A DNA stretch of 20,017 nt from positions 1 through 20,017 of IMG/VR virus record IMGVR_UViG_3300034374_006238; one strand, written 5' to 3'. This DNA is from a virus. Below the pieces are notes generated by a model. The model saw nothing but the letters and a program-made list of their open reading frames with translations, did not search any database and had not been told where the DNA came from. Positions 1 through 10,134 of the stretch are shown here, one piece after another. The first letter of the stretch is position 1; the number at the start of each line of letters is the position of its first letter. Made by a program: the position numbers and the translations under genes.

Positions 1-189
1 TGTATATACTTTGTGAGGACTACCCTTAAAATAATTATCTTCAATTGATTGCCAAACCTTTGCAATTATATTGTTATCACAGAAGCAATCAAACAAGAAT
101 GTTTTCATTTGCTCATCATCTAGACCAGATACTTCTATATTTTCAAGCTCATCTACATAAGCTTCACTCAAATCTAAATCGTATTTCAT
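1..189 (-). CDS. Hypothetical protein, partial (C-terminus outside window)
   Basis: A leftward reading frame starts with ATG at 189 and stays open for 63 codons to the window edge, so its end is missing. It is preceded by a strong ribosome binding site (AAAGGAGAAT, complement of 194-203). The visible part begins MKYDLDLSEAYVDELENIEV, is acidic and shows no motif I recognise. Upstream lie about 200 bases of non-coding DNA with a possible structured RNA and a leftward promoter near 400-427, so the gene may have its own transcript. It could be an immunity-region or accessory protein. The function is unknown. Confidence 0.7.
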   Translation of the reverse strand, partial: MKYDLDLSEAYVDELENIEVSGLDDEQMKTFLFDCFCDNNIIAKVWQSIEDNYFKGSPHKVYT

Positions 190-264
190 AATAATTCTCC
201 TTTGATTAATTAACTACATTAAATAATAACTACTGTATAAAAGCTATCATCTAATATAATTAGT

Positions 265-393
265 CTGCTACTTCTACTTGCCTATGCTGTTACCCTTTAT
301 TGCAGCGTTATCGGGATAGGTTCGTTTACCTCACAGATTTGAATAAGTTTTTAAATATCTTTTGATTTGGTAACAATCATTCTGTTACGCTAT
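265..393 (-). ncRNA. Candidate structured non-coding RNA or long leader
   Basis: The 250 bases between the two leftward genes contain a GC-richer island, unusual in this AT-rich DNA. A leftward promoter (400-427) would start transcription near 393. On the leftward RNA, TGTTACC (375-369) can pair with GGTAACA (294-288), and AGCGT (391-387) with ACGCT (308-304), in interleaved order. TGTTAC can instead pair locally with GTAACA (388-383). A compact set CCTAT/ATAGG, GCTG/CAGC and CCC/GGG lies within 281-320 and would fold on either strand. Short pairings like these arise by chance fairly easily, so strand and extent are uncertain. No ORF was seen here. Confidence 0.35.
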
Positions 394-399
394 GAGATA

Positions 400-427
400 A
401 GTATACAACTATTTTACAAAAAGTAAA
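400..427 (-). promoter_or_regulatory. Leftward sigma-70-like promoter with overlapping inverted repeat
   Basis: On the minus strand a TTTACT -35 box (427-422) and a TATACT -10 box (405-400) are separated by 16 bp. The palindrome TTTAC-AAAAA-GTAAA (413-427) covers the -35 box and could be an operator. This promoter would transcribe the structured stretch and the partial gene ending at the window edge. Confidence 0.5.
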
Positions 428-439
428 GTATTATTTTAA

Positions 440-637
440 TTATTTAATAAATATATTTTGTGGAGAATGAACTAATGCAATTATCTTATCTACTTGCTCA
501 TCACTAAAGCTATTATGACCTTCATGATACCTAAATAATTGCCTTGATATATCTAAGTAATTAGCTATAGACGATTTATTTATTCCATGAAGCATTTTAA
601 CTGCATTTATAGTGTCTGTAATGTTTGATTTTTTCAT
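440..637 (-). CDS. Small HTH (Cro/cI-like) regulator
   Basis: A 65-residue protein. Residues about 16-45 (LHGINKSSIANYLDISRQLF and following) read as an XRE/Cro-type helix-turn-helix: a short helix, a turn after the N-K-S pattern, and a recognition helix around DISRQLFRYHEG. It has no dimerisation or cleavage domain, so it resembles Cro or a minimal repressor. It is transcribed leftward, divergent from the early genes at 798, with its own promoter at 670-697. The intergenic region carries a perfect inverted repeat over the rightward -10 box. That arrangement is typical of a lysis-lysogeny switch. Which role it plays cannot be told from sequence. Confidence 0.75.
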   Translation of the reverse strand: MKKSNITDTINAVKMLHGINKSSIANYLDISRQLFRYHEGHNSFSDEQVDKIIALVHSPQNIFIK

Positions 638-669
638 TTGAATATTTCCCTATGTTATTGAAAACATAT

Positions 670-697
670 ATATTATCATACTTTTATTTTTTGTAAA
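670..697 (-). promoter_or_regulatory. Leftward promoter of the HTH regulator
   Basis: On the minus strand TTTACA (697-692) and TAATAT (675-670) are 16 bp apart. Transcription would start near 662, about 25 bases ahead of the regulator's ATG at 637. Confidence 0.5.
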
Positions 698-730
698 GAT
701 AATAATTTATAAAAAAGTTTACTTTATTTA

Positions 731-758
731 TTGAATTATGTATAACTTGTGTTATACT
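731..758 (+). promoter_or_regulatory. Rightward early promoter with operator-like inverted repeat
   Basis: TTGAAT (731-736) and TATACT (753-758) are separated by 16 bp. An overlapping pair, TTTACT (719-724) and TATAAC (741-746), is 17 bp apart. The perfect inverted repeat GTATAAC-TTGT-GTTATAC (740-757) spans both -10 boxes, so a dimer bound there would block polymerase. It is the best candidate binding site for the divergent HTH regulator. Confidence 0.6.
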
Positions 759-797
759 ATATACATAAATTAAACAACAATCAAAAGGACAAGTAAA

Positions 798-1328
798 ATG
801 AAAAGATTAGAAATATTGAAAAACTCTTTGGAAAAAAAAGAAGCTAAACAGGATGATAATTTCAACTCACTATATAAGCACCAAGCAATGACGCATGGTT
901 CGCCAGTCAATGATAAGCGTGGTGGTGGTGCGTGGTTTAATGCTCACGAAAAGATAAATGATAGTATACGCAACCAATATGCGTCTATTGAAAAAACCAA
1001 GCAGGCTATAGAAAGAGAACAGAAAAGACTTGCAAGAAATGAAGATGCTAGAGAGATGTTGCTTGATTACCCGCAAGCGATAATTGATCTAGTTGAAGCA
1101 GGTACACTTATTCAATGGAATAAATACCCAAATACTTTTTTTGTCAATGGGCTTGACAAAATAAGAATAATTTATGAAAAAAAAGAGCTTAAAACTAAAA
1201 TTACTGAGACTTTATATCACAAATATGGTAGTGCGTTTGCTTCAATATCAACTAAAGAACAAATAAAATACTTTAATGATTTGTTTAATGAGCTGAAAAG
1301 CAAAGTAAATAAAATTACTAAAAAATAA
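798..1328 (+). CDS. DUF3560-like hypothetical protein
   Basis: A 176-residue basic, largely helical protein and the first gene of the rightward early transcript. Its start is supported by AAAAGGACAAG about 7 bases upstream. Residues 32-75 (HGSPVNDKRGGGAWF, then a helix rich in Glu, Lys and Arg) resemble the small conserved block of DUF3560-type proteins found on phages and plasmids: a Gly-Pro motif, an Arg-Gly-Gly motif and a coiled helix. The C-terminal half (about 85-150) reads as a compact alpha/beta domain. I recognise the general style but not a biochemical activity. A specific function should not be inferred. Confidence 0.8.
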   Translation: MKRLEILKNSLEKKEAKQDDNFNSLYKHQAMTHGSPVNDKRGGGAWFNAHEKINDSIRNQYASIEKTKQAIEREQKRLARNEDAREMLLDYPQAIIDLVEAGTLIQWNKYPNTFFVNGLDKIRIIYEKKELKTKITETLYHKYGSAFASISTKEQIKYFNDLFNELKSKVNKITKK

Positions 1329-1346
1329 AAACTAAGGATAATAATA

Positions 1347-1481
1347 ATGAGTAGTACAACAACGCATATGCGAGTAAACAAGAAAATTCTAGAAGACTTG
1401 AATGAGTTAGCAAAATCTAAAGATATGACAATGCAGGCTGTCTTGAGAATGATGATAAGAAAAGAAAAAGAGCTTAAATAA
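1347..1481 (+). CDS. Small ribbon-helix-helix-like protein
   Basis: A 44-residue protein starting at ATG 1347 behind AAGGAT (1334-1339). The sequence MSSTTTHMRVNKKILEDLNE followed by LAKSKDMTMQAVLRMMIRKE has the layout of an Arc/CopG ribbon-helix-helix protein: a short strand around THMRVN, helix 1 (KKILEDLNELAKSK), a turn (DMTM) and helix 2 (QAVLRMMIRKEKE). Such proteins bind DNA as dimers. It lies 18 bases after the preceding gene, so the two are probably co-transcribed. It may be a transcriptional regulator of the adjacent replication genes. That role is inference. Confidence 0.7.
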   Translation: MSSTTTHMRVNKKILEDLNELAKSKDMTMQAVLRMMIRKEKELK

Positions 1482-1516
1482 GTATTGAATATTAATATTA
1501 ATTATTTTATTTATTG

Positions 1517-1525
1517 TGTTATAAT
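1517..1525 (+). promoter_or_regulatory. Extended -10 promoter for the replication operon
   Basis: TGT-TATAAT (1517-1525) is an extended -10 box. The -35 region (about 1497-1502, ATTAAT) is poor, as is usual when a TGn extension is present. Transcription would start near 1531-1532, exactly where the leader begins to match the one at 4320. Confidence 0.55.
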
Positions 1526-1530
1526 ACTAG

Positions 1531-1639
1531 TATCAAATTTGCATAAGCTGAGCGTGAGACCTTAGCTTTATGTACCAAAGTTTGGGGGAGAGCTTATCCT
1601 ATTAGCTGTCTCACCTCCCCCACTAAATAGGAGTTAATT
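1531..1639 (+). promoter_or_regulatory. Structured pseudoknot leader RNA, member 1 of a two-member family
   Basis: This is the leader of the replication protein gene. P0 pairs 1542-1552 with 1561-1572, 11 bp with one G-U pair and one bulged T, leaving an 8-base loop. Loop bases GTGAGAC (1554-1560) pair with GTCTCAC (1608-1614). TGGGGGAG (1583-1590) pairs with CTCCCCCA (1615-1622). The two pairings are interleaved and their 3' strands are contiguous. Between them lies hairpin AGCT/AGCT (1591-1594, 1604-1607). Its loop TCCTATT (1597-1603) is perfectly complementary to AATAGGA (1626-1632), which contains the Shine-Dalgarno sequence. The leader at 4320 repeats this layout with different bases, so the fold appears selected. 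The likely role is control of translation; the signal is unknown. Confidence 0.85.
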
Positions 1640-2383
1640 ATGACTGAAATATCAAAAAAAGAAAAACCAAATTATTACGCTATAATCACCGCAAATGTCA
1701 GGTACGATAAAGAATTAACAGCTAATGCTAAACTATTATATGCTGAAATAACTGCTTTATGCAATATGAATGGAAATTGCACAGCATCATCTGAATACTT
1801 TGCTAAATTATACAATGTAAGCAGAGTATCAATTCAAAAATGGCTATCACAATTAGAAAATTGTGGCTATATAAACAGAAAAGTAACATACAAAAAAGGT
1901 AGTAAACAAATTGACACTAGGTACATAACAATTATTAACAACCCTAGTAAAGAAAAGTTTACTACCCCTAGTAAAGAAAAATTAACAGAGAATAATAATA
2001 TATCTAAAGATATATATAAGAATAATAATATTACATATAGTAATAACTCTATAGTCTCTTTTTCAGGATCTGATAATGGAGTAATTGAAGCGGGAGATAT
2101 AACCAAAGAAGTTATTGATCATTTAAATCAAGTAGCTAAAACAAACTACAAATCAACTACACCTTTGAATAGAAAATATATTAAAGCAAGAGTTAAAGAA
2201 GGTTTTACCTTAGAAGATTTCAAAACAGTTATTGAAAACAAAACAAGGCAGTGGTCATCAAACAGTGAAATGGTTGCTTATCTGAGACCCCAAACGCTAT
2301 TTGGTACAAAAATGGAGAGCTACCTTAATCAGCCTAAGCCACAATCAAGATTAGACAGAGCATTCGAGGATATGGGATTATGA
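1640..2383 (+). CDS. Phage replication protein with HTH_36-like and Phg_2220_C-like domains
   Basis: A 247-residue protein. Residues about 5-95 form a winged-helix domain of the HTH_36 type (KLLYAEITALCN, then the recognition helix near NVSRVSIQKWLSQLENCGYI, then a wing ending TRYITI). Residues about 100-150 are a low-complexity Asn/Ser linker with a duplicated PSKEK motif. Residues about 155-235 match the conserved phage C-terminus Phg_2220_C, in style EVIDHLNQVAKTNYK to RPQTLFGTKMESYLNQP. Such proteins act at phage origins as replication initiators or primosome-like (DnaD-type) factors. The ATGA overlap with the helicase-loader-like gene supports this. AGGAG lies 6 bases before the ATG and may be hidden by the leader RNA. 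Confidence 0.85.
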   Translation: MTEISKKEKPNYYAIITANVRYDKELTANAKLLYAEITALCNMNGNCTASSEYFAKLYNVSRVSIQKWLSQLENCGYINRKVTYKKGSKQIDTRYITIINNPSKEKFTTPSKEKLTENNNISKDIYKNNNITYSNNSIVSFSGSDNGVIEAGDITKEVIDHLNQVAKTNYKSTTPLNRKYIKARVKEGFTLEDFKTVIENKTRQWSSNSEMVAYLRPQTLFGTKMESYLNQPKPQSRLDRAFEDMGL

Positions 2384-3024
2384 TAATTGAAGACACAAAA
2401 AAAATAATGAAGTTGTTAGATGCTAATTACAATATTTTAGATTCTGATGATAATGAGAAAAACAAAATAAAGATAAACATTTGGCATAAGGTATTACAGT
2501 ATTACACTTTTGAAGATGTTGGCAAGGCTTGTGGTAGCTACATAAACAATAGCCGTATTACTCCTAAGCCAAGCGACATCAAAGCAGAACTAGAAGCTAA
2601 ACAAGCTAAAAGACATTCGGTCTATAAGCAGGTTTCTAATCAGCAATTAGAATGCGAAGCAAAGCTTACTAAGCAAAATCTACAGCAATTATGCAACAAA
2701 GAGTTTGCACCTTTTTTAGATATGAACTTATCAAATGAATTAAGATCTGAATTAATAGAAAAGCATAACCAAGCAAACATAGATGAATTCGTAAGCCATA
2801 TATGGGCTTATGTTATGCACACAGATGATTTTCAAATTCATCATGCTCAGATGGCTTTAGATGATGTTAGAGGTACTAAATTTACATTTAAAGAGTTTAT
2901 GCAAGCTTTAATTAATGCTCATGATCTCTCACAAGAAATTGCAAGAAATCCAAACAAGATAGAAGCTTGTAAACAATTTTTATATGGTAATCAAAATGAA
3001 AACCCAATCAAAAAAACAGCATAG
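2380..3024 (+). CDS. Replicative helicase loader-like protein (G39P-like N-terminus)
   Basis: A 214-residue protein whose ATG overlaps the preceding stop by four bases, implying coupled translation. Residues about 5-75 resemble the N-terminal domain of phage helicase loader/inhibitor proteins of the G39P type: a helical start, then KINIWHKVLQYYTFEDVGKA, and a SRITPKPSDIKAEL segment. The middle (70-130) is Gln/Lys-rich and helical. The last part has no motif I know. In this family the protein loads or restrains the replicative helicase at the initiator-bound origin, which fits its position. The assignment rests on pattern similarity and position and is moderate. Confidence 0.7.
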   Translation: MIIEDTKKIMKLLDANYNILDSDDNEKNKIKINIWHKVLQYYTFEDVGKACGSYINNSRITPKPSDIKAELEAKQAKRHSVYKQVSNQQLECEAKLTKQNLQQLCNKEFAPFLDMNLSNELRSELIEKHNQANIDEFVSHIWAYVMHTDDFQIHHAQMALDDVRGTKFTFKEFMQALINAHDLSQEIARNPNKIEACKQFLYGNQNENPIKKTA

Positions 3025-3092
3025 CAACAGATCATTAATCAAGAAAAAAATATAAAATAAAATATCATCAAAAAAAATACTAGGACAATGAA

Positions 3093-3290
3093 ATGGCTAA
3101 TTCAAACTCAGAAAAAACAAAAAAAATAAGATCTCAAAATGCTGTTGAATGGACTAAAATAACTAAAAGATTCGAAGTGAAATTAAAGCCGAGTGACAGT
3201 AAATATATAAATATAATTAATGATTTAAATCAAAAAAACAACATAGACAAGTTAAAGTTTTTAATTGATTTTTATCAAAAAAATAAATAA
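3093..3290 (+). CDS. Small basic protein, possible ribbon-helix-helix
   Basis: A 65-residue lysine-rich protein. The ATG at 3093 is chosen because TAGGAC lies just upstream; the ATG at 3088 leads to a stop after a few codons. Residues 28-64 (RFEVKLKPSD, then SKYINIINDLNQ, then DKLKFLIDFYQK) could form a strand and two helices as in ribbon-helix-helix DNA-binding proteins. A strong promoter directly follows it, so it probably ends this operon. The function is unknown. Confidence 0.6.
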   Translation: MANSNSEKTKKIRSQNAVEWTKITKRFEVKLKPSDSKYINIINDLNQKNNIDKLKFLIDFYQKNK

Positions 3291-3294
3291 TAAG

Positions 3295-3323
3295 TTGACA
3301 AAACAATTATAATCGACTATAAT
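3295..3323 (+). promoter_or_regulatory. Near-consensus sigma-70 promoter
   Basis: TTGACA (3295-3300) and TATAAT (3318-3323) match both consensus boxes and are 17 bp apart. Transcription would start near 3330, giving a short leader before the gene at 3353. An 11-bp palindrome (ACTATAATAGT, 3316-3326) covers the -10 box. Confidence 0.8.
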
Positions 3324-3352
3324 AGTAACATAAATAAGAAAAAAGGATAACA

Positions 3353-3814
3353 ATGTCAATTTTAAACAAAGATCAATATCAAAGAAGAGCAGAAAATTCA
3401 GCTAAAAGAATGGAAATTCAAAAGCAAATATCTTCATTAACTGAAGAACAGCACGATGCAATTGCTAAAGTATGTAGCATGAGACATGATCTGCACTCTA
3501 ATTTGGATGCATTGCTTATAAGCGAAAGTGTTAATTTTTCTACATTTAATTCTTGGTTATGTGGTGATAATGATGAATCATTTAATATGCTTTTGAAAAA
3601 TGTTGGAATTGATAATGACTTATCTTGGTCACCAGAAGATTTACCTGCGGATGATTCTATGTGGTCTGAATTTTATTCAGATTATGATGAATTCTATGAG
3701 GAAGAATATGAAATAGCAAGTAATATACATTTACAGATAGAAAATTTCTTAAGAAAAATTGATGCAGAACACGGTACATCTTATGCTCCAACAGGATTCC
3801 AAAGAATTTTATAA
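3353..3814 (+). CDS. Acidic hypothetical phage protein
   Basis: A 153-residue protein with AAAAGGA just ahead of the ATG and a near-consensus promoter upstream. The N-terminal 45 residues look helical (RRAENSAKRMEIQKQISSL). The middle and end are strongly acidic: residues about 98-125 carry DDSMWSEFYSDYDEFYEEEY. There is no signal peptide, membrane segment or known motif. Small, very acidic phage proteins are sometimes DNA mimics or inhibitors of host nucleases, but nothing here proves that. It is the first gene of a unit that includes the RusA resolvase. Confidence 0.7.
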   Translation: MSILNKDQYQRRAENSAKRMEIQKQISSLTEEQHDAIAKVCSMRHDLHSNLDALLISESVNFSTFNSWLCGDNDESFNMLLKNVGIDNDLSWSPEDLPADDSMWSEFYSDYDEFYEEEYEIASNIHLQIENFLRKIDAEHGTSYAPTGFQRIL

Positions 3815-3849
3815 AATGGAAATTATATCAATAAAAAGGGCTAAATAAT

Positions 3850-3891
3850 ATGAAAAAAAAGCCAGTAGAAATAATTGAATATGAAAAGTAG
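3850..3891 (+). CDS. Possible 13-residue micro-ORF
   Basis: ATG at 3850 opens MKKKPVEIIEYEK and then TAG. It has a good ribosome binding site (AAAAAGGG, 3833-3840) at normal spacing. The downstream rusA start has none nearby, so translation here may help deliver ribosomes to rusA 12 bases later. It may not make a functional peptide. Confidence 0.3.
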   Translation: MKKKPVEIIEYEK

Positions 3892-3903
3892 TCGCAATAT
3901 ATC

Positions 3904-4308
3904 ATGGAGATAATTAATAAAATGATTAATATATGCTATCTAGTTAAGCCTAAGCCAGCACCAAGACCACGAGTTACAAGTAGAGTTACTTACAACGCTA
4001 AGGACTATACAGCGTGGAAAAATGGTTTGAAGTTGATAGCTAAAACAAAGATGAAAAAACCTCTCGAAGGTGCGGTAGGCATGAAAGTAGAATTTTTTTA
4101 TAAAATTCCCAAGAGCTGGAGCAAGCAAAAGAAAGCTGATGCAAAATGGCATATTTCAAGGCCAGATAAAGATAATTTGCTAAAATCGGTTTTCGACGCA
4201 CTAAATGGTGTAGCTTTCGTTGATGATTCTCAAGTATGTCAGCTTGATTCAAGAAAACAATATGCAGAATTTGAAGGTGTAAAGATTGAAATATACGACA
4301 TATCTTGA
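3904..4308 (+). CDS. rusA: RusA-family Holliday junction resolvase
   Basis: A 134-residue protein. The family core is clear: RPDKDNLLKSVFDALNG (87-102) followed by DDSQV (107-111). Asp88, Asp90 and Asp107/108 correspond to the metal-binding aspartates that cut Holliday junctions. RusA enzymes act as dimers and resolve branched DNA made during phage recombination and replication before packaging. The ATG at 3904 lacks a nearby ribosome binding site. The in-frame ATG at 3922 (MINICYLVKPKPAPRPR) has GGAG at 3906-3909, 12 bases ahead, and gives an N-terminus more like other RusA proteins, so it may be the true start. The promoter of the next operon lies inside the 3' end of this gene. Confidence 0.92.
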   Translation: MEIINKMINICYLVKPKPAPRPRVTSRVTYNAKDYTAWKNGLKLIAKTKMKKPLEGAVGMKVEFFYKIPKSWSKQKKADAKWHISRPDKDNLLKSVFDALNGVAFVDDSQVCQLDSRKQYAEFEGVKIEIYDIS

Positions 4309-4314
4309 TATAAT
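4286..4314 (+). promoter_or_regulatory. Sigma-70 promoter overlapping the end of rusA
   Basis: TTGAAA (4286-4291) and TATAAT (4309-4314) are 17 bp apart. The predicted start near 4320-4321 coincides with the beginning of the second structured leader. A 13-base palindrome, GATATA-A-TATATC (4307-4319), covers the -10 box. Confidence 0.75.
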
Positions 4315-4319
4315 ATATC

Positions 4320-4433
4320 TATCAAATTCGTTGATAATTCAAGAGTGGTGTCTTAAATTAATCATAATCAAAGTTTGCCTAGGGCGTTCCAGTCGCCACA
4401 CCACCTAGGCAATAACTTAACTGGAGATAAATA
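4320..4433 (+). promoter_or_regulatory. Structured pseudoknot leader RNA, member 2 of the family
   Basis: It has the same layout as 1531-1639. P0 pairs TGAT/ATCA (4332-4335, 4361-4364), AATT/AATT (4336-4339, 4356-4359) and AAG/CTT (4341-4343, 4352-4354), with a bulged A4360 and a C-A mismatch; its loop has 8 bases. Loop GTGGTGT (4345-4351) pairs with ACACCAC (4398-4404). TTGCCTAG (4375-4382) pairs with CTAGGCAA (4405-4412), contiguous with it. Between them lies hairpin GGCG/CGCC (4383-4386, 4394-4397). Its 7-base loop TTCCAGT pairs with ACTGGAG (4420-4426), which contains the GGAG ribosome binding site. An upstream ATCAA/TTGAT hairpin (4321-4325, 4331-4335) competes with the base of P0, hinting at a switch. 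Confidence 0.85.
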
Positions 4434-5174
4434 ATGTTTAAGAAAAAAATATTTAATAAAAATGTAGCAGTACATTGTGATACAGAAGCTAAAGACTTGG
4501 CTCTGCGTACTTATGCCCATAGTAAAGGTTATAAGTGGTGCAATGGGAATAGTTTTTTAGACAAATCTGAGTTTTATTCTGTAGGGGATGATTATTGTCT
4601 ACTTATAGTCAATGGTAATTTTGGTACTCTAAATAAACTTAAAACCAAAAATTACTACAAAGTGATATCTTTTGAAAAGGCTTTTAAAAAAGGATATGAA
4701 TGGGATGAAAAATTAGGAAAGGTTGTATTTCCCGCAAGTGAGAAACAAGAAGTTAAACAAGAAGTTAAAGAAGAAATTAAGTACCCTATATTTGCCAAAG
4801 GTAAAGATGATGTGCTTGTAGTCAAATTTACAGCAAGTGAAACAGGAGAAGTTGTATTATCTCCTAGTAATTCTGAAGTAATCTTAAATATTGTATACGG
4901 AAGTTTTGTTTCTCATACTGATAAAGATGTTTGGCAAATACTAGACTACAACGAAGAGCGTAGTCTATATGATACTCAACCAGTTATAGTTTGGGATGAT
5001 GATATGAAAGCAGATAAATCTTTAAGATTTTATGATGCTGTCAATGATGGAACTTTTTCATTTTCAGGGAAGAGAAATGGCTCTAATTGGAGTAAAATGA
5101 AGCCATTAACAAAAGAGCAACTGATTGCATTTAAAGATGAAATAGAAGAGATGTATAAGAATTTAAAGGTGTAG
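4434..5174 (+). CDS. Two-domain hypothetical phage protein under leader-RNA control
   Basis: A 246-residue protein preceded by GGAG (4423-4426). Residues 1-100 form one unit, with a start like VAVHCDTEAKDLALRTYAHS and a GYKWCNG motif. I have the impression that related N-termini occur in unannotated phage proteins. Residues 104-117 are a charged repeat linker (QEVKQEVKEEIK). Residues 118-246 form a second unit, with WDDDMKADKSLRFYDAVNDG and FSGKRNGSNWSKMKPLT. It has no membrane segment or catalytic motif I recognise. It heads the operon that contains ssb, suggesting a role around DNA replication, but the activity is unknown. Confidence 0.75.
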   Translation: MFKKKIFNKNVAVHCDTEAKDLALRTYAHSKGYKWCNGNSFLDKSEFYSVGDDYCLLIVNGNFGTLNKLKTKNYYKVISFEKAFKKGYEWDEKLGKVVFPASEKQEVKQEVKEEIKYPIFAKGKDDVLVVKFTASETGEVVLSPSNSEVILNIVYGSFVSHTDKDVWQILDYNEERSLYDTQPVIVWDDDMKADKSLRFYDAVNDGTFSFSGKRNGSNWSKMKPLTKEQLIAFKDEIEEMYKNLKV

Positions 5175-5176
5175 AT

Positions 5177-5263
5177 ATGGAAGAAAATAAATATATTCAA
5201 GATGTTGATTGCGACCTATGCGATTATGAAGATGTTGAAATAGAAAATATAATACAGTATTAA
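5177..5263 (+). CDS. Small acidic 28-residue protein
   Basis: ATG at 5177, two bases after the previous stop, opens a 28-codon frame beginning MEENKYIQDVDCDLCDYEDV. AAAGGTG (5165-5171) gives it a good ribosome binding site. The peptide is very acidic and has a C-x-x-C pair (Cys12, Cys15). It sits in an operon between the 246-residue protein and an HTH protein. Such small acidic proteins are often missed. No function can be assigned. Confidence 0.5.
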   Translation: MEENKYIQDVDCDLCDYEDVEIENIIQY

Positions 5264-5273
5264 GAAATAAGAT

Positions 5274-5630
5274 ATGAATTATACAATTAAGGAAGCATCT
5301 CAAGAACTTGGAATATCTGAAACTACTGTTAATAGTTTTATAAGCAAGCTAGACTTAAAAGTTAAATATAAACCTATTAAAGTTAATGTTAAATCAAGTG
5401 CAGGAATTAGGTATCAAAAAATTGTAAATTGTAAATATCTTACTAATATTCAATTTTGTAGAATTAAATTTGCTATTAATCTAAACAATAAAATCAAAGA
5501 AAGTTATAGAATTGAAAAAATTACAATTGGTTTAAAAGAAAAATACAATAAAAATAAAAACCATGTTAAAAAATATATGAAGTCTAAACACTTCGATTTT
5601 TTTAGCACAACATTTGGAAATATAAAATAA
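5274..5630 (+). CDS. HTH DNA-binding protein
   Basis: A 118-residue, strongly basic protein. Residues 1-28 (MNYTIKEASQELGISETTVN) read as a MerR/excisionase-like helix-turn-helix, with EASQELGIS as first helix and turn and ETTVNSFISKL as recognition helix. The rest is Lys/Asn-rich without a recognised domain. Its stop overlaps the ssb start by one base (TAATG), so the two are translationally coupled. It probably binds DNA, as a regulator or replication accessory factor. Its ribosome binding site is weak (around AAGAAAT). Confidence 0.7.
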   Translation: MNYTIKEASQELGISETTVNSFISKLDLKVKYKPIKVNVKSSAGIRYQKIVNCKYLTNIQFCRIKFAINLNNKIKESYRIEKITIGLKEKYNKNKNHVKKYMKSKHFDFFSTTFGNIK

Positions 5631-5959
5631 TGAATATAGTTAATTTGGTTGGAAGACTTGGAAAAGATGTAGAGCTAAGACAAGTGGGCGAAAATAAAGT
5701 TACAAGTTTAGCTCTTGCTACTACCGATGGTTTTGGAGATAACAAAAAGACTAATTGGCATAATGTATCTTTCTGGAATAAACAAGCAGAAGCTTTAGAG
5801 AATTATTGCTCGAAAGGTAGTCAATTAGCAATTACTGGAAGTATCGATTATTATCAAGATAAAGAGGGTAATTATAGAACACAAATAAAAGGCATAAGCT
5901 TTGAGTTTATTGGTGGTAGTGGTCAAGGTAATAACTTTGATGATGATATTCCTTTTTAA
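5630..5959 (+). CDS. ssb: Single-stranded DNA-binding protein
   Basis: A 109-residue SSB, at the short end for the family. Residues 1-95 are the OB fold: NIVNLVGRLGKDVELRQV at the start, then TNWHNVSFWNKQAEALENYC and KGSQLAITGSIDYYQDKEGN. The C-terminus is a short Gly/Asn linker ending DDDIPF, the acidic tip that recruits partner replication and repair proteins. It coats single-stranded DNA at the phage fork. It is coupled to the upstream HTH gene by a one-base overlap and is the last gene before a new promoter. Confidence 0.95.
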   Translation: MNIVNLVGRLGKDVELRQVGENKVTSLALATTDGFGDNKKTNWHNVSFWNKQAEALENYCSKGSQLAITGSIDYYQDKEGNYRTQIKGISFEFIGGSGQGNNFDDDIPF

Positions 5960-5982
5960 TAATTTAAATAATCTATAAAATA

Positions 5983-6011
5983 TTGACTTATATTATATAG
6001 TACGCTATAAT
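5983..6011 (+). promoter_or_regulatory. Near-consensus sigma-70 promoter for the repeat-protein block
   Basis: TTGACT (5983-5988) and TATAAT (6006-6011) are 17 bp apart. The start would be near 6018, ahead of AAAAAGGAC and the ATG at 6054. CTATA-A-TATAG (6005-6015) is a palindrome over the -10 box. Confidence 0.75.
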
Positions 6012-6053
6012 ATAGATAAGAATTTAATAAATTAGATAAAAAGGACAAATAAA

Positions 6054-6527
6054 ATGAAAGAAAAAATGACAAGTTATGAAGCATATGTATATTGTAGAGA
6101 TGTCAAAGATACTAAAGAAATTAGACGATTGATTACTGATAGCAATGATGCTTATTGGTATTGCATATATGTAAAGGACAGAAAAAGCATTAGAAAGTTG
6201 ATTACTGATAGCAAGAATGCTTTTTGGTATTGCAAAGATGTCAAAGATAGAAAAAATATGAGAAAGTTAATTACTGATAGATATCATGTTTTTTGGTATT
6301 GCAGAGATGTAAAAGATAGAAAAAATATGAGAAAGTTAATTACTGATAGCTATGATGCTTATTGGTATTGCATATATGTAAAGGACAGAAAAAGTATAAG
6401 AGAGTTGATTACTGATAGATATCATGCTTTTTGGTATTGCAGAGATGTAAAAGACAGAAAAAGTATAAGAAAGTTGATTACTGATGATGCTTTGATTGAT
6501 GAATTAGATAATATAAAGTTAATTTAA
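6054..6527 (+). CDS. Protein of six 23-residue solenoid-like repeats
   Basis: A 157-residue protein made almost entirely of tandem units of exactly 23 residues from residue 10 to about 144. The unit reads A-(Y/F)-W-Y-C-x-x-V-K-D-R-K-x-x-R-K-L-I-T-D followed by three variable positions. The variation lies at the I/R/K-Y/D pair after Cys and at the last three positions. The spacing recalls helical repeat families such as DUF4116 or LRV-type solenoids, which usually mediate protein contacts. Each unit has a conserved Cys, so a metal or redox role cannot be excluded. AAAAAGGACAAAT supports the ATG at 6054; an in-frame ATG at 6066 matches the start of its shorter paralogue at 6734. The function is unknown. 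Confidence 0.75.
   Translation: MKEKMTSYEAYVYCRDVKDTKEIRRLITDSNDAYWYCIYVKDRKSIRKLITDSKNAFWYCKDVKDRKNMRKLITDRYHVFWYCRDVKDRKNMRKLITDSYDAYWYCIYVKDRKSIRELITDRYHAFWYCRDVKDRKSIRKLITDDALIDELDNIKLI
6081..6485 (+). repeat. Tandem 69-bp coding repeats (six units)
   Basis: Six consecutive units of 69 bases encode the 23-residue repeats. Adjacent units are very similar at DNA level (for example the recurring TATTGCAGAGATGTAAAAGA), so unit number can change by unequal recombination or slippage without breaking the frame. Confidence 0.85.
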
Positions 6528-6537
6528 AAGGAAAAAT

Positions 6538-6732
6538 ATGTCTAGAAGTAAATCTTTAATTAAAGCACAAAAAAAGTATTGTAAGAACAATGTAAAACAA
6601 ATTAAATTTGATTTGATAAAAAATAACGATATTGAAATGGAGATAATATCAAGATTTGAAAAGTCGCAAAATAAAAAAGGTTTATTTATTAAAATTTATC
6701 AAGCGTTTAAAAAATTGGATATGGAGAAATAA
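6538..6732 (+). CDS. Small basic phage protein
   Basis: A 64-residue lysine-rich protein with AAAAGGA just upstream of the ATG. The opening MSRSKSLIKAQKKYCKNNVK followed by a strand-like KQIKFDLIKNND and two helices (EMEIISRFEKSQ, KGLFIKIYQAFKK) is a pattern I associate with small phage and plasmid proteins, often ribbon-helix-helix-like. It lies between the two repeat-protein genes and is probably co-transcribed with them. The function is not known. Confidence 0.65.
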   Translation: MSRSKSLIKAQKKYCKNNVKQIKFDLIKNNDIEMEIISRFEKSQNKKGLFIKIYQAFKKLDMEK

Positions 6733-6733
6733 G

Positions 6734-6931
6734 ATGACAAGTTATGAAGCATATGTATATTGCAGAGATGTAAAAGATAGAAAAAATATGAGAAAGTTAA
6801 TTACTGATAGCTATGATGCTTATTGGTATTGCATATATGTAAAGGACAGAAAAAGTATAAGAGAGTTGATTACTGATGATGATTTTGAAATCCCAAATTG
6901 CAATATAAAGTTGAGTAAAAAGGACAAATGA
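6734..6931 (+). CDS. Two-unit paralogue of the 23-residue repeat protein
   Basis: A 65-residue protein. ATG 6734 is preferred over a longer frame beginning at 6656, because GGAG (6723-6726) precedes it and its first residues MTSYEAYVYCRDVKD copy the larger protein from its Met5. It has two 23-residue units, corresponding to units 4 and 5 of the larger gene, then a different acidic and basic tail (DDDFEIPNCNIKLSKKDK). A 120-base stretch is identical to 6297-6416, so the copy is recent. Its stop lies within the ribosome binding region of the next gene. Confidence 0.7.
   Translation: MTSYEAYVYCRDVKDRKNMRKLITDSYDAYWYCIYVKDRKSIRELITDDDFEIPNCNIKLSKKDK
6758..6877 (+). repeat. 120-bp direct repeat, identical to 6297-6416
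   Basis: Bases 6758-6877 are identical to 6297-6416 by direct comparison (offset 461). The 29 bases from the ATG (6734-6762) also match 6066-6094. The short gene is therefore the larger gene with internal units removed. Confidence 0.9.
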
Positions 6932-6932
6932 A

Positions 6933-7400
6933 ATGGAAGTCAACAAATTAAGAAAAATATATTTAGAAAAAATAGTTAGCTTATTTATGAATGAACAGAA
7001 ATTATCAGATGGCAATAATTTTTATTTTATCGACATACATGGAGATGTTGAAGACAATTGTGATGTAATCGTAAAGATATGTGAGATAATAGTTAGTGGC
7101 TACATTGCTGGCGAGGATGTCATATTAAGAAAATTTATGCGTATTAACATGAAAAAACAGATTGAACATCTTAGCTGTAGTTTGATTGGTGGCAATAAAG
7201 TTTGTTTTTGGCTAGAAGGTTATCAAGAATATTTTAATGATAAAACTCTAGTATTCGAGTTCATGGAAAAAATACGCAAGCTAAATTATGATTATGTTGA
7301 TCGATGTATTAGAAGATACGAAGACGAGGGTTTAATAATTGAACCAGAGTTTGTCGAGATTTTAACAACAAATGACAAATTTGAAAGAGTAAAAAATTAA
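6933..7400 (+). CDS. Hypothetical protein
   Basis: A 155-residue soluble protein with an extended start site AAAAAGGACAAATGAA ahead of ATG 6933. It begins with a helix (MEVNKLRKIYLEKIVSLFMN) and continues with YFIDIHGDVEDNCDVIVKIC, then a mixed region with a CFWLEGYQEYF segment and a final helical part (VDRCIRRYEDEGLIIEPEFV). I recognise no motif. It ends the accessory block that begins at 6054 and is followed by a new promoter and leader. Confidence 0.7.
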   Translation: MEVNKLRKIYLEKIVSLFMNEQKLSDGNNFYFIDIHGDVEDNCDVIVKICEIIVSGYIAGEDVILRKFMRINMKKQIEHLSCSLIGGNKVCFWLEGYQEYFNDKTLVFEFMEKIRKLNYDYVDRCIRRYEDEGLIIEPEFVEILTTNDKFERVKN

Positions 7401-7402
7401 TA

Positions 7403-7431
7403 TTGATTTTATAACGAAATAATTGTATTAT
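7403..7431 (+). promoter_or_regulatory. Sigma-70-like promoter for the ClpP-like gene
   Basis: TTGATT (7403-7408) and TATTAT (7426-7431) are 17 bp apart. The predicted start at about 7438-7439 begins the GGCTAGGG leader. Confidence 0.6.
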
Positions 7432-7438
7432 TAATTTT

Positions 7439-7514
7439 GGCTAGGGAGATATCCCGAAAAGAGGAATGTCCACCTCCTGCCTTTTAAACAGGACTTTGCA
7501 CAAAGGAGACAATT
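7439..7514 (+). promoter_or_regulatory. Structured leader with possible ribosome-binding-site switch
   Basis: CTCCTGCC (7474-7481) can pair with the transcript's first bases GGCTAGGGAG (7439-7448, two bulges). Part of it can instead form hairpin TCCTG/CAGGA (7475-7479, 7489-7493). The loop of that hairpin begins CCTTT (7480-7484), complementary to AAAGG (7502-7506) in the AAAGGAG ribosome binding site. The two states exclude each other, as in a translational switch. A GGGA-GATA-TCCC hairpin (7444-7455) competes with the first. It lacks the P0 hairpin and the CAAAGTTTG core of the leaders at 1531 and 4320. Confidence 0.45.
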
Positions 7515-8072
7515 GTGAGCAAAAAAAAATCAGAATATAAACAAATAGAAATTCACACCAAAGAAGAAAACTTTTCACTTATAAGTAACACAAAAAATAT
7601 TTATGATTTGTATGTGGGCGAGTTCGATGATTCAGAGCTAGGTCACAACATGATAATTAATAAATTGTCTCAACTTGACAAAAAAGATACTTTAAATATT
7701 CATATAAGCTCGAATGGTGGTGTTGTAAGTTTGCTAATTAATTATATAAACATTTTGCAAAAAACTACTGCTACAGTCAACGCTTATTTAAATTTTGGCT
7801 ATTCTGCTGGAGCTTTATTATTTGGAGCTTGTCACAATAGATATGTATACTCACATTCTTCATTAATGTATCATACATTCTCACAATGTATAAATGGAAA
7901 ATCTCAAGAGTTGCAATCAAATTTAAGTTGTAATATGAGAATAATACATGCATTGATGAATAATTTTTATTTAGGCATTAATGAAGAAGAATTTAACCAA
8001 CTCAAAGATGGTAAAGATTTTTGGTTTGATGCAGATGAGATAGTAGATAGAAAAATAGCGATAATGATATAA
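7515..8072 (+). CDS. ClpP-like serine protease
   Basis: A 185-residue ClpP-fold protein. The GTG start is supported by AAAGGAG (7502-7508). Residues about 60-69 (NIHISSNGG) form the oxyanion/substrate strand. GYSAG places the nucleophile at Ser97. SLMYHTF gives His120. The KDFWFDADE segment aligns Asp168 with the third catalytic residue. These spacings nearly match E. coli ClpP (Ser97, His122, Asp171). Phage ClpP-like proteins often act as prohead proteases, but this one stands alone, far from the scaffold-capsid genes, which have their own DUF2213 protein. It may process head proteins or degrade host or phage targets. Confidence 0.85.
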   Translation: MSKKKSEYKQIEIHTKEENFSLISNTKNIYDLYVGEFDDSELGHNMIINKLSQLDKKDTLNIHISSNGGVVSLLINYINILQKTTATVNAYLNFGYSAGALLFGACHNRYVYSHSSLMYHTFSQCINGKSQELQSNLSCNMRIIHALMNNFYLGINEEEFNQLKDGKDFWFDADEIVDRKIAIMI

Positions 8073-8090
8073 CTATGAGTGATATTAACA

Positions 8091-8228
8091 ATGTCTAAAC
8101 TAACAGATGAAATTAAAAATAGAGATAAAATAAAAAATGATTTTTGTTTAAAACAAAATATAAAACTAATAAGAATCCCGTATTATCATTACCATAAAAT
8201 AGAAGTTATTTTAGATAAGGGGTTATAA
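8091..8228 (+). pseudogene. C-terminal remnant of a phage (homing) endonuclease
   Basis: A 45-codon frame from ATG 8091 with a weak ribosome binding site (GAGTGA). Residues 7-40 contain RDKIKNDFCLKQNIKLIRIP followed by YYHYHKIEVILDK. I recognise this as the end of phage VSR-like/DUF723-type endonucleases, where an RDKIK..yC..N.IkLiRIPY motif follows the catalytic core. The upstream catalytic part (a YDG.QHF-type motif) is absent and the frame is closed at 8076. Such enzymes often lie beside terminase genes, as here. It may be a decayed intron-less homing gene or a small translated leftover; it ends directly at the next start. Confidence 0.6.
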
Positions 8229-8774
8229 GTGTCTTTAAGTACTAGAAAAAAAAATCAGATAATTGCAGAGTGGAAAGCTGGTAGATTTAATAGCTATTAT
8301 GCTGTAGCTAAACACCATCAAATAAGTCAGCCAATAGCCAAGAAAATGTTAGTAAATATAGATCAATCAAATGTAGATATAGTAAGGACTGGAGTGGAGT
8401 ATGAAACAGCTAAAAAACTTAGTAAAAATTTAGTAGAAATAAAAGCTATAGAAAATGAGGTTGCTAATAGGATTAAAGTTGACAATATATCTAATAAGAT
8501 ACTTGATAAAGCTAGCCAAATGATATCATCAAACAAGACTATTGAGAAAGTAAATGTCGGCGATGGTATGCAATCATTTCAAGAAAGAGAATTGAATAGT
8601 GCGGACTTAAAAAATTTAGCTGATACAGTTGATAAGGCTAGTGTTACTCTTGGAGTAAACCAAAGACACGCTAGCAGTCAAGTAACAGTTAATAATACTA
8701 ATGCACAGCAGAATAACGATAATAATAGCAATTTAATCACAGAAGCCCTGAAGGCAAAGTATGCAAATAAATGA
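8229..8774 (+). CDS. terS: Terminase small subunit
   Basis: A 181-residue protein starting at GTG 8229, directly after the preceding TAA, with AAGGGG upstream. Residues about 8-40 (NQIIAEWKAGRFNSYYAVAK, HHQISQPIAKKML) form an HTH typical of small terminases that recognise the packaging site. The central part is helical and would oligomerise. The C-terminus is an Asn/Gln-rich flexible stretch (VTVNNTNAQQNNDNNSN) ending in a helix likely to contact the large subunit. It overlaps terL by 14 bases. Identification rests on HTH, length and position. Confidence 0.8.
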   Translation: MSLSTRKKNQIIAEWKAGRFNSYYAVAKHHQISQPIAKKMLVNIDQSNVDIVRTGVEYETAKKLSKNLVEIKAIENEVANRIKVDNISNKILDKASQMISSNKTIEKVNVGDGMQSFQERELNSADLKNLADTVDKASVTLGVNQRHASSQVTVNNTNAQQNNDNNSNLITEALKAKYANK

Positions 8775-10134
8775 CATCGTCAATTGTAGAACTGATCTAC
8801 TAACTTTTTCAAAAGCTATTTTCAAAAGCCGTAAAGGTATCGACTGGGTAGAAAACTTGCATCATAAGGTTATATGTGAACATCTTGAGCGTGTTGTTAT
8901 TGGCGACATTAAAAGGCTTATAATTAATATACCCCCGAGATATTCAAAGACAGAGTTAGCAGTTATCAACTTCATTGCTTGGTGTATTGGTAATTATCCA
9001 GATAGCGAATTTATTCATGCGAGTTATTCTAAGAGATTAGCTACTAACAATACATGGAATGCTAGAGCAATAGTTGAGGGCGAAACCTTTGAGGAAATAT
9101 TTGGAGAAATAGGACTAAGGAACGATAGCAACGCAAAAGACGAGTGGCGGACAAATGCTGGCGGTTGTGTATACGCTACGGGTGCAGATGGTACTATCAC
9201 AGGCTATGGTGCTGGTGGTATGTCAACCAATTTCAAGGGTGCAATAATTATAGATGATCCACACAAGGCTGGGGAAGCTAACAGCGATACTATGCGTAAC
9301 AATGTTATTGATTGGTTTAGCACAACTATAGAAAGCCGAACCAACTCAAAAGATACGCCAATTATATTAATCATGCAAAGACTACATGAGGAAGACTTAA
9401 GCGGTTTTTTGTTAAATGGCGGTAATGGGGAAGATTGGACACATCTTAATATACCAGCTATTGATGATGATGGATTGCCTTTGTGGGAATATAAGCATTC
9501 TATAGAAGATTTGCGTAGAATAGAAAGTGCTAATCCTTACGTATTTGCTGGACAATATATGCAGACGCCAGCACCTAAGGGAGGTGGATTGTACAAGCAA
9601 GATCGGTTTAAATATTACACAATAGAGCCTCAATTTAAATATAGATTAATGTTTGCTGATACGGCAATGAAAACTAAAGAAGCAAATGATTATAGTGTAT
9701 TGCAGGTGTGGGGATATACAGCAAATAAAGATGCTTATCTGATAGACCAGCTGAGAGGAAAGTGGGAAGCTCCAGAGCTAAAGCAAATGACTACATCATT
9801 TTGGGAGAAGCATAAAAATTTATCTAACGGCAGGCTAAGAAATTTATGTGTGGAAGATAAAGCTAGTGGTACTGGATTAATTCAATCACTTCAAAGGGAA
9901 AATAATATAACCGTTAAAGCAATTCAAAGAAACAACGATAAGATAACAAGGGCTTATGATGCCGTTCCATATATGGCTAGTGGCAGAGTTTATTTTAGAG
10001 ATGGAGCGGACTATTTATCAGACCTAATACCAGAGCTTTTAGTATTCCCAAATGGAAAGCATGATGACCAAGTAGATGTGTTGAACGATGGTATATCAGA
10101 ATTAGAAAAAAAATCATCTTCATTTTTTGGTTAA
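8761..10134 (+). CDS. terL: Terminase large subunit
   Basis: A 457-residue packaging motor and nuclease. The ATPase has a Walker A variant PPRYSKTEL (58-66), Walker B AIIIDD (161-166) and a coupling segment around QRLHEEDL (206-213). The C-terminal RNase H-like nuclease has FAD (298-300, Asp300), VEDKASGTG (364-372) and HDDQVDVL (434-441), which supply the metal-binding acids. It pumps DNA into the prohead through the portal and cuts concatemers. Length and motifs look complete. It overlaps terS by 14 bases, with GAAGG inside the terS end as ribosome binding site. Confidence 0.96.
   Translation: MQINDIVNCRTDLLTFSKAIFKSRKGIDWVENLHHKVICEHLERVVIGDIKRLIINIPPRYSKTELAVINFIAWCIGNYPDSEFIHASYSKRLATNNTWNARAIVEGETFEEIFGEIGLRNDSNAKDEWRTNAGGCVYATGADGTITGYGAGGMSTNFKGAIIIDDPHKAGEANSDTMRNNVIDWFSTTIESRTNSKDTPIILIMQRLHEEDLSGFLLNGGNGEDWTHLNIPAIDDDGLPLWEYKHSIEDLRRIESANPYVFAGQYMQTPAPKGGGLYKQDRFKYYTIEPQFKYRLMFADTAMKTKEANDYSVLQVWGYTANKDAYLIDQLRGKWEAPELKQMTTSFWEKHKNLSNGRLRNLCVEDKASGTGLIQSLQRENNITVKAIQRNNDKITRAYDAVPYMASGRVYFRDGADYLSDLIPELLVFPNGKHDDQVDVLNDGISELEKKSSSFFG

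Follow-up and report, generated by a model that had tools for sequence, protein, structure and literature searches.

The timing of phage replication-gene expression is assumed to be mostly transcriptional, and to our knowledge few phage pseudoknot operators are well characterised. In riboswitches of the SAM-II and preQ1-II types, a compact pseudoknot sits just upstream of the Shine-Dalgarno (SD) sequence, and its pairing state sets access to the SD. In HK022, two early transcripts begin with put, a structured RNA that acts in cis, and in ColIb-P9 repZ, one of the IncI/IncL/M-type rep leaders, a pseudoknot activates and an antisense RNA inhibits. The operator of T4 gene 32 combines a pseudoknot of ~28 nt with >40 nt of unstructured RNA, and an A/U-rich ribosome binding site (RBS) with UUAA/UAAA units follows the pseudoknot of the T4/RB69 gene 32 leader (PMC535899).

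We analysed the 20-kb IMG/VR record IMGVR_UViG_3300034374_006238 (G000), referred to as the window, which has a G+C content of 31% and encodes a replication initiator, a helicase loader, RusA, a single-strand binding protein (SSB) and the terminase large subunit (8761-10134). A preliminary description had proposed that two of its leaders, M1 and M2, represent a new family of cis-regulatory RNAs, sharing one interleaved fold but not its base pairs. Complementarity is kept in homologues and Rfam holds no match, in agreement with that proposal. The result is an RNA supported by comparative genomics, with three separate testable pairings, that is kept at two promoters despite swapped genes.

Architecture of the two leaders

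The leaders, their elements and the genes directly behind them lie on the plus strand. M1 (1532-1622) precedes the replication initiator gene (1640-2383; HTH_36 and Phg_2220_C), whose operon also encodes a helicase-loader-like protein (2380-3024, plus strand; phrog_2289). M2 (4321-4412) precedes a gene for a 246-aa protein without a family match (4434-5174), and the SSB gene lies further downstream in the same stretch (5630-5959, plus strand). Domain matches place replication-related operons under both leaders, in line with the original view that both serve early operons. M1 follows a TATAAT -10 box (1520-1525, extended as TGT-TATAAT), and its transcript is expected to start at about 1532, the spacing from the -10 box to ATCA being equal in all five copies described below; the M2 promoter is TTGAAA-17-TATAAT with TG (4286-4314; 11/12). 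We infer that M1 and M2 each start at the 5' end of a transcript. Both contain AUCAAAUU...CAAAGUUUG, and when they are aligned the 5' ends share TATAAT-N6-ATCAAATT, while CAAAGTTTG precedes helix H2 in each.

In M1, the conserved 5' strand AUCAAAUUUG (1532-1541), unpaired in the model, leads into hairpin P0 (1542-1552/1561-1572; 11 bp with one bulge), whose 8-nt loop (1553-1560) contains strand L, GUGAGAC (1554-1560). The 10-nt linker UACCAAAGUU (1573-1582), with a conserved CAAAGUU, is followed by H2 (1583-1590/1615-1622; 8 bp) and by the P3 stem (1591-1594/1604-1607) with its apical loop UAUCCUAUU (1595-1603). Strand L', GUCUCAC (1608-1614), pairs with L and is directly abutted by H2. The SD region AAUAGGAG (1626-1633) contains AAUAGGA, predicted to pair with the complementary UCCUAUU of the P3 loop (1597-1603). 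M2 has the same elements: P0 (4332-4343/4352-4364; 11 bp), L (GUGGUGU, 4345-4351), the linker (4365-4374), H2 (4375-4382/4405-4412), P3 (4383-4386/4394-4397), the P3 apical loop UUCCAGU (4387-4393), L' (ACACCAC, 4398-4404) and the SD region ACUGGAG (4420-4426), with all 7/7 loop bases complementary to the SD context. All the elements of the preliminary description were found where it had placed them, and both leaders share the 11-bp bulged P0, except that P0 of M2 has a C.A mismatch besides its bulge.

The pairings behind the "interleaved" fold first described are real, but the arrangement differs. P3 is not a separate hairpin filling a gap; it continues H2, so that the two form one hairpin (1583-1622 in M1 and 4375-4412 in M2) with an uninterrupted 5' strand and with L' as a 7-nt bulge on the 3' strand. 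As modelled from the aligned sequences, L/L' is a 7-bp kiss between the P0 hairpin loop and this bulge. The energy of H2 plus P3 is -13 to -16 kcal/mol, and the fold of about 80 nt ends 2-10 nt upstream of the SD.

Covariation and distribution

Architecture alone is weak evidence for such an element, and only covariation settles whether the fold is real. An exact 7+7-bp descriptor has about one chance match per 20-kb strand, and ordinary nested folding gave z values no lower than -2.1 and -1.6 for M1 and M2. For a single leader the architecture is not improbable; the original argument that chance does not explain the kept complementarity is borne out by the covariation of four copies.

Three extra copies were found in IMG/VR. 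A search pattern made of the promoter and the two conserved strands matched a near-identical contig (3300007344_000366) and one new phage, G001 (IMGVR_UViG_3300048504_000503). Leader M3 of G001 belongs to its second operon (L, GUUAGAC/GUCUAAC; H2, UGGGGUG/CACCCCA), and M4 lies upstream of its initiator (L, GUUGAGC/GCUCAAC; H2, UGGGGAG/CUCCCCA). A second pattern yielded M5, the initiator leader of G388 (IMGVR_UViG_3300023210_000227), which departs from M4 in the 5' strand only. The known set is three related uncultured phages with effectively four distinct copies. G388 is a mosaic phage (loci L223 and L224): its structural genes are different, and its homology to G001 is confined to an early-left block, about 97.8% identical, that breaks off just before the expected position of the second leader. 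Since only this block is shared, the element travels with a replication module.

Automatic alignments of the copies misplaced H2 and P3, so a one-copy model was used to realign the remaining copies. The resulting alignment of M1-M4 (A10) was fitted to the nested structure, with L/L' left outside the model. With the pseudoknot included, 94% of the cells are paired and 19/27 pairs are changed on both sides; none of 500 shuffles reached any of five measures, and pairing fell to 32-45% in slid controls with the partner moved by 1-3 columns. For L/L', H2 and P3, pairing across the four copies is 100%, with compensatory changes in 13/17 pairs (0/500 shuffles). L/L' and H2 each have 5/7 pairs doubly changed and keep complete pairing in the homologous leaders, and for L/L', which lies outside the fitted model, this is independent of the fitting. 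Support for P0 is weaker (84-85% of cells paired). A further possible pairing, of the 5' CAAAUUU with the linker CAAAGUUUG, overlaps H2 and is invariant, and therefore carries no evidence either way. Judged by sequence comparison, the fold is confirmed.

A covariance-model search of phage DNA, as had been proposed, recovers the other copies from a single one. A model built on M3 only and run over 58 kb returned M1, M4 and M2 as the next-best matches (E of 1e-6, 1e-3 and 8e-3; following match, 0.94). Over 0.9 Mb of viral DNA, mostly unrelated, a covariance search gave 94 and 64 bits for the pair of copies in G001 and no more than 20.7 for any other match. The leader is absent from initiator relatives that have other upstream DNA (L122 and L124). 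In phages related by terminase, the early region was missing from the fragments or gave scores at noise level only, and among GenBank phages and plasmids neither the leader nor a relative of the HTH_17 protein was found. Covariance model R2 gave four weak matches in 369 Gammaproteobacteria genomes, with a limited number of candidates scored. The only plausible-looking one (L229) lies behind an engA/der-like GTPase gene, lacks L/L' and was rejected. Matches to short sequence patterns were mostly due to chance. The distribution is narrow, covering a few phages.

No part of the window matched an Rfam 15 covariance model at the gathering score, and at E values up to 10 M1 and M3 gave chance matches only, far below threshold, which bears out the earlier statement that no known riboswitch or Rfam family is recognisable. 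The suggested link to Francisella-like genomes found no support in the genomes searched. A tau-like protein of G001 hinted at a Francisella-type host through an NCBIfam model that we take to be Francisella-type, and in 30 genomes of the only candidate host family matching this clue no leader and no related terminase was convincingly found among the limited candidates scored.

Gene context and a predicted anti-SD loop

Between the window and G001, the terminases are 92% identical, the initiators 32% and the SSBs 31%. Both phages have one leader before the initiator and one before a second operon, at the same two promoters, and the second operon contains SSB in both. The first genes of that operon are unrelated: the window has the 246-aa protein, and G001 has a 117-aa protein behind M3 (L172 2833-3186) that is DNA polymerase III tau C-terminal-like (28% identity over 98 aa with L233). 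Where the window encodes RusA (3904-4308), G001 has a VRR-NUC nuclease instead (L172 2357-2707). Because the leaders stay at the two promoters while the downstream genes change, we conclude that they act in cis. Three other strong promoters (-10 boxes ending at 758, 3323 and 6011) have plain leaders of only 30-43 nt, and a consensus scan of window positions 1-9000 found 0 terminator-like sites (1.9 expected). Retention at the same promoters, short plain leaders elsewhere and the lack of terminators favour control at the RBS over product-specific autoregulation or antitermination.

Several other features of these early regions were observed. In both phages the initiator leader is immediately preceded by the gene for a small protein of 44-55 aa (window 1347-1481; G001 locus L172 about 350-530), an order that resembles the copG-rep order of some plasmids. 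The window's protein is CopG/Arc-like (PF12441, E of 8.5e-5, below cut-off); that of G001 has no family match, and its stop codon overlaps the -10 box of the initiator leader. The 117-aa tau-like protein may give the phage a hold on the replicase of its host. Proteins made of tandem repeats of ~23 residues (YCxxVKDRKSxRKLITD) occur in several copies per phage, without a family match (window 6054-6527 and 6735-6931; G001 L172 4357-4683 and 6142-6531). At locus L209 (2590-2900), a non-coding, AT-rich stretch beside the early promoter carries a strong inverted repeat (cattacttta...taatggg), and the stretch is also present in G001, at the contig end.

The P3 apical loop matches the SD context of its own leader in M1 (UCCUAUU/AAUAGGA), M2 (UUCCAGU/ACUGGAG, the whole loop) and M3 (UAAUCC/GGAUUA). 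Loop-only duplex energies for these copies are -7.1, -8.7 and -6.8 kcal/mol (shuffle p of 0.033, 0.007 and 0.012), and own-SD pairing is stronger than swapped pairing with the SDs of other copies. When the leader and about 50 nt of the gene were scanned, the SD context clearly outranked every other partner of the loop in M1 and M2, and the strongest window of M3 (-7.1) spans GGAUUAAAUCAA, nearly tied with a site in P0 (-6.7). M4 gave only -0.6 kcal/mol (p of 0.82), and in M4 and M5, the initiator leaders of G001 and G388, a long AU hairpin capped by UUUU replaces the anti-SD loop, so hiding of the SD is not universal. The joint shuffle p over all four copies (5e-5) is only indicative, since the test was devised after the match had been seen in M1-M3. 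The strands of L' or H2 were also considered as partners of the SD, and this pairing is not conserved. The loop-SD match, missed in the preliminary description, argues more strongly for a role in translation than any other observation.

On balance we favour a new, narrowly distributed, cis-acting translational control RNA of phage leaders that hides the SD, probably as an on/off switch. Comparison of the copies shows that the leader, from the transcript 5' end, folds as two tandem hairpins, with the P0 loop strand L kissing bulge L'; statistical support for pairing of the P3 apical loop with its own SD, which would hide the RBS, comes from three of the four distinct copies. Because L/L' is always 7 bp, with zero linker bases to P3 or H2, its stacking on H2 would displace P3; pushed off the H2 stack, the P3 loop could fold back onto the SD. 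By a geometric argument, the constant 7 bp with zero linkers would fit the crossing of one deep groove. Lacking the kiss, P3 would stack on H2 to give 11-12 bp; in M1 and M3, the 3 nt from H2 to the SD contact would then be too few to reach. We infer that the kissed form is the OFF state and that translation turns ON when the kiss is opened or prevented, most likely by a phage or host RNA-binding protein, or by a ligand. With the element at two promoters, initiator expression would be tied to the second, SSB-containing operon, and the earlier suggestion that the RNA may coordinate replication-gene translation is plausible. A bolder reading, which we put forward tentatively, is a new class of switch: the 7-bp loop-bulge kiss would be the sensor that swings the anti-SD hairpin onto the RBS, and a shared signal would synchronise the initiator and SSB operons.

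Alternatives and comparison with described systems

The presence of SSB in operon 2 of both phages, and a pseudoknot followed by an A/U-rich RBS that contains UUAA/UAAA units, as in T4/RB69 gene 32 (PMC535899), would suit an SSB operator in which the pseudoknot nucleates SSB and excess SSB coats the RBS and shuts the initiator and SSB operons. We regard this as unlikely: the genes directly behind the leaders encode the initiator, the 246-aa protein or the tau-CTD-like protein, with SSB further down; identity between the SSBs is just 31%; 2-10 nt separate the pseudoknot from the SD, compared with >40 nt of unstructured RNA in T4 (PMC535899); and the anti-SD loop is left unexplained. A riboswitch, in which the conserved unpaired AUCAAAUU and UCAAAGUU would bind a small molecule in a pocket at the kiss and thereby set SD access, would account for an output at the SD and for the unpaired bases conserved next to a covarying pseudoknot. 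These bases, however, are A/U-rich and small in number, M4/M5 lack some of them (linker UCAGUU), the element occurs in a few phages only, and the genes suggest no metabolite, which makes this explanation equally improbable.

Antitermination of the HK022 put type, in which RNA polymerase, on starting either operon, is modified by the nascent leader, fits two copies at the 5' ends of early transcripts that are independent of the downstream genes. It is very unlikely given the lack of terminator-like sites noted above, the other strong promoters without such a leader and the complementarity that extends to the SD. We give least weight to a 5'-end mRNA stabiliser, a knotted end that blocks 5'-dependent decay without switching. 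The structure is stable, and about 10 nt separate it from the inferred start of the transcript, but a plain hairpin would be sufficient, and the conserved 7-bp kissing and SD-matched loops are left unexplained.

The translational control RNA that we favour would be a compact model for a loop-bulge kiss possibly controlling SD access, and its covariance model a means of finding more copies. It resembles the SAM-II and preQ1-II types in having a pseudoknot just upstream of the SD, with a role in SD access that is here predicted; it differs in its loop-bulge kissing topology, very narrow distribution, and lack of an Rfam match or known ligand. Like HK022 put, it is a structured 5' RNA on two early transcripts in cis, but its two copies point in the same direction and extend to the RBS, and the scan revealed no terminator-like site downstream. 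As in ColIb-P9 repZ, a leader pseudoknot precedes a replication initiator gene, whereas here only one of the two copies has an initiator behind it and no antisense promoter stood out: a minus-strand scan gave one weak 9/12 site at 4337-4310 and none opposite M1 among the sites listed, such sites being about as frequent in the region as in shuffles. The T4/RB69 gene 32 operator is the closest system in possible function, sharing a leader pseudoknot 5' of the SD, a replication-related operon and an adjoining A/U-rich RBS sequence (PMC535899). It differs in size, spacing and gene context: the T4 operator lies directly before gene 32, whereas the present element is a loop-bulge kiss of about 80 nt with an anti-SD loop, occurs in two copies per phage and does not have SSB as the first gene.
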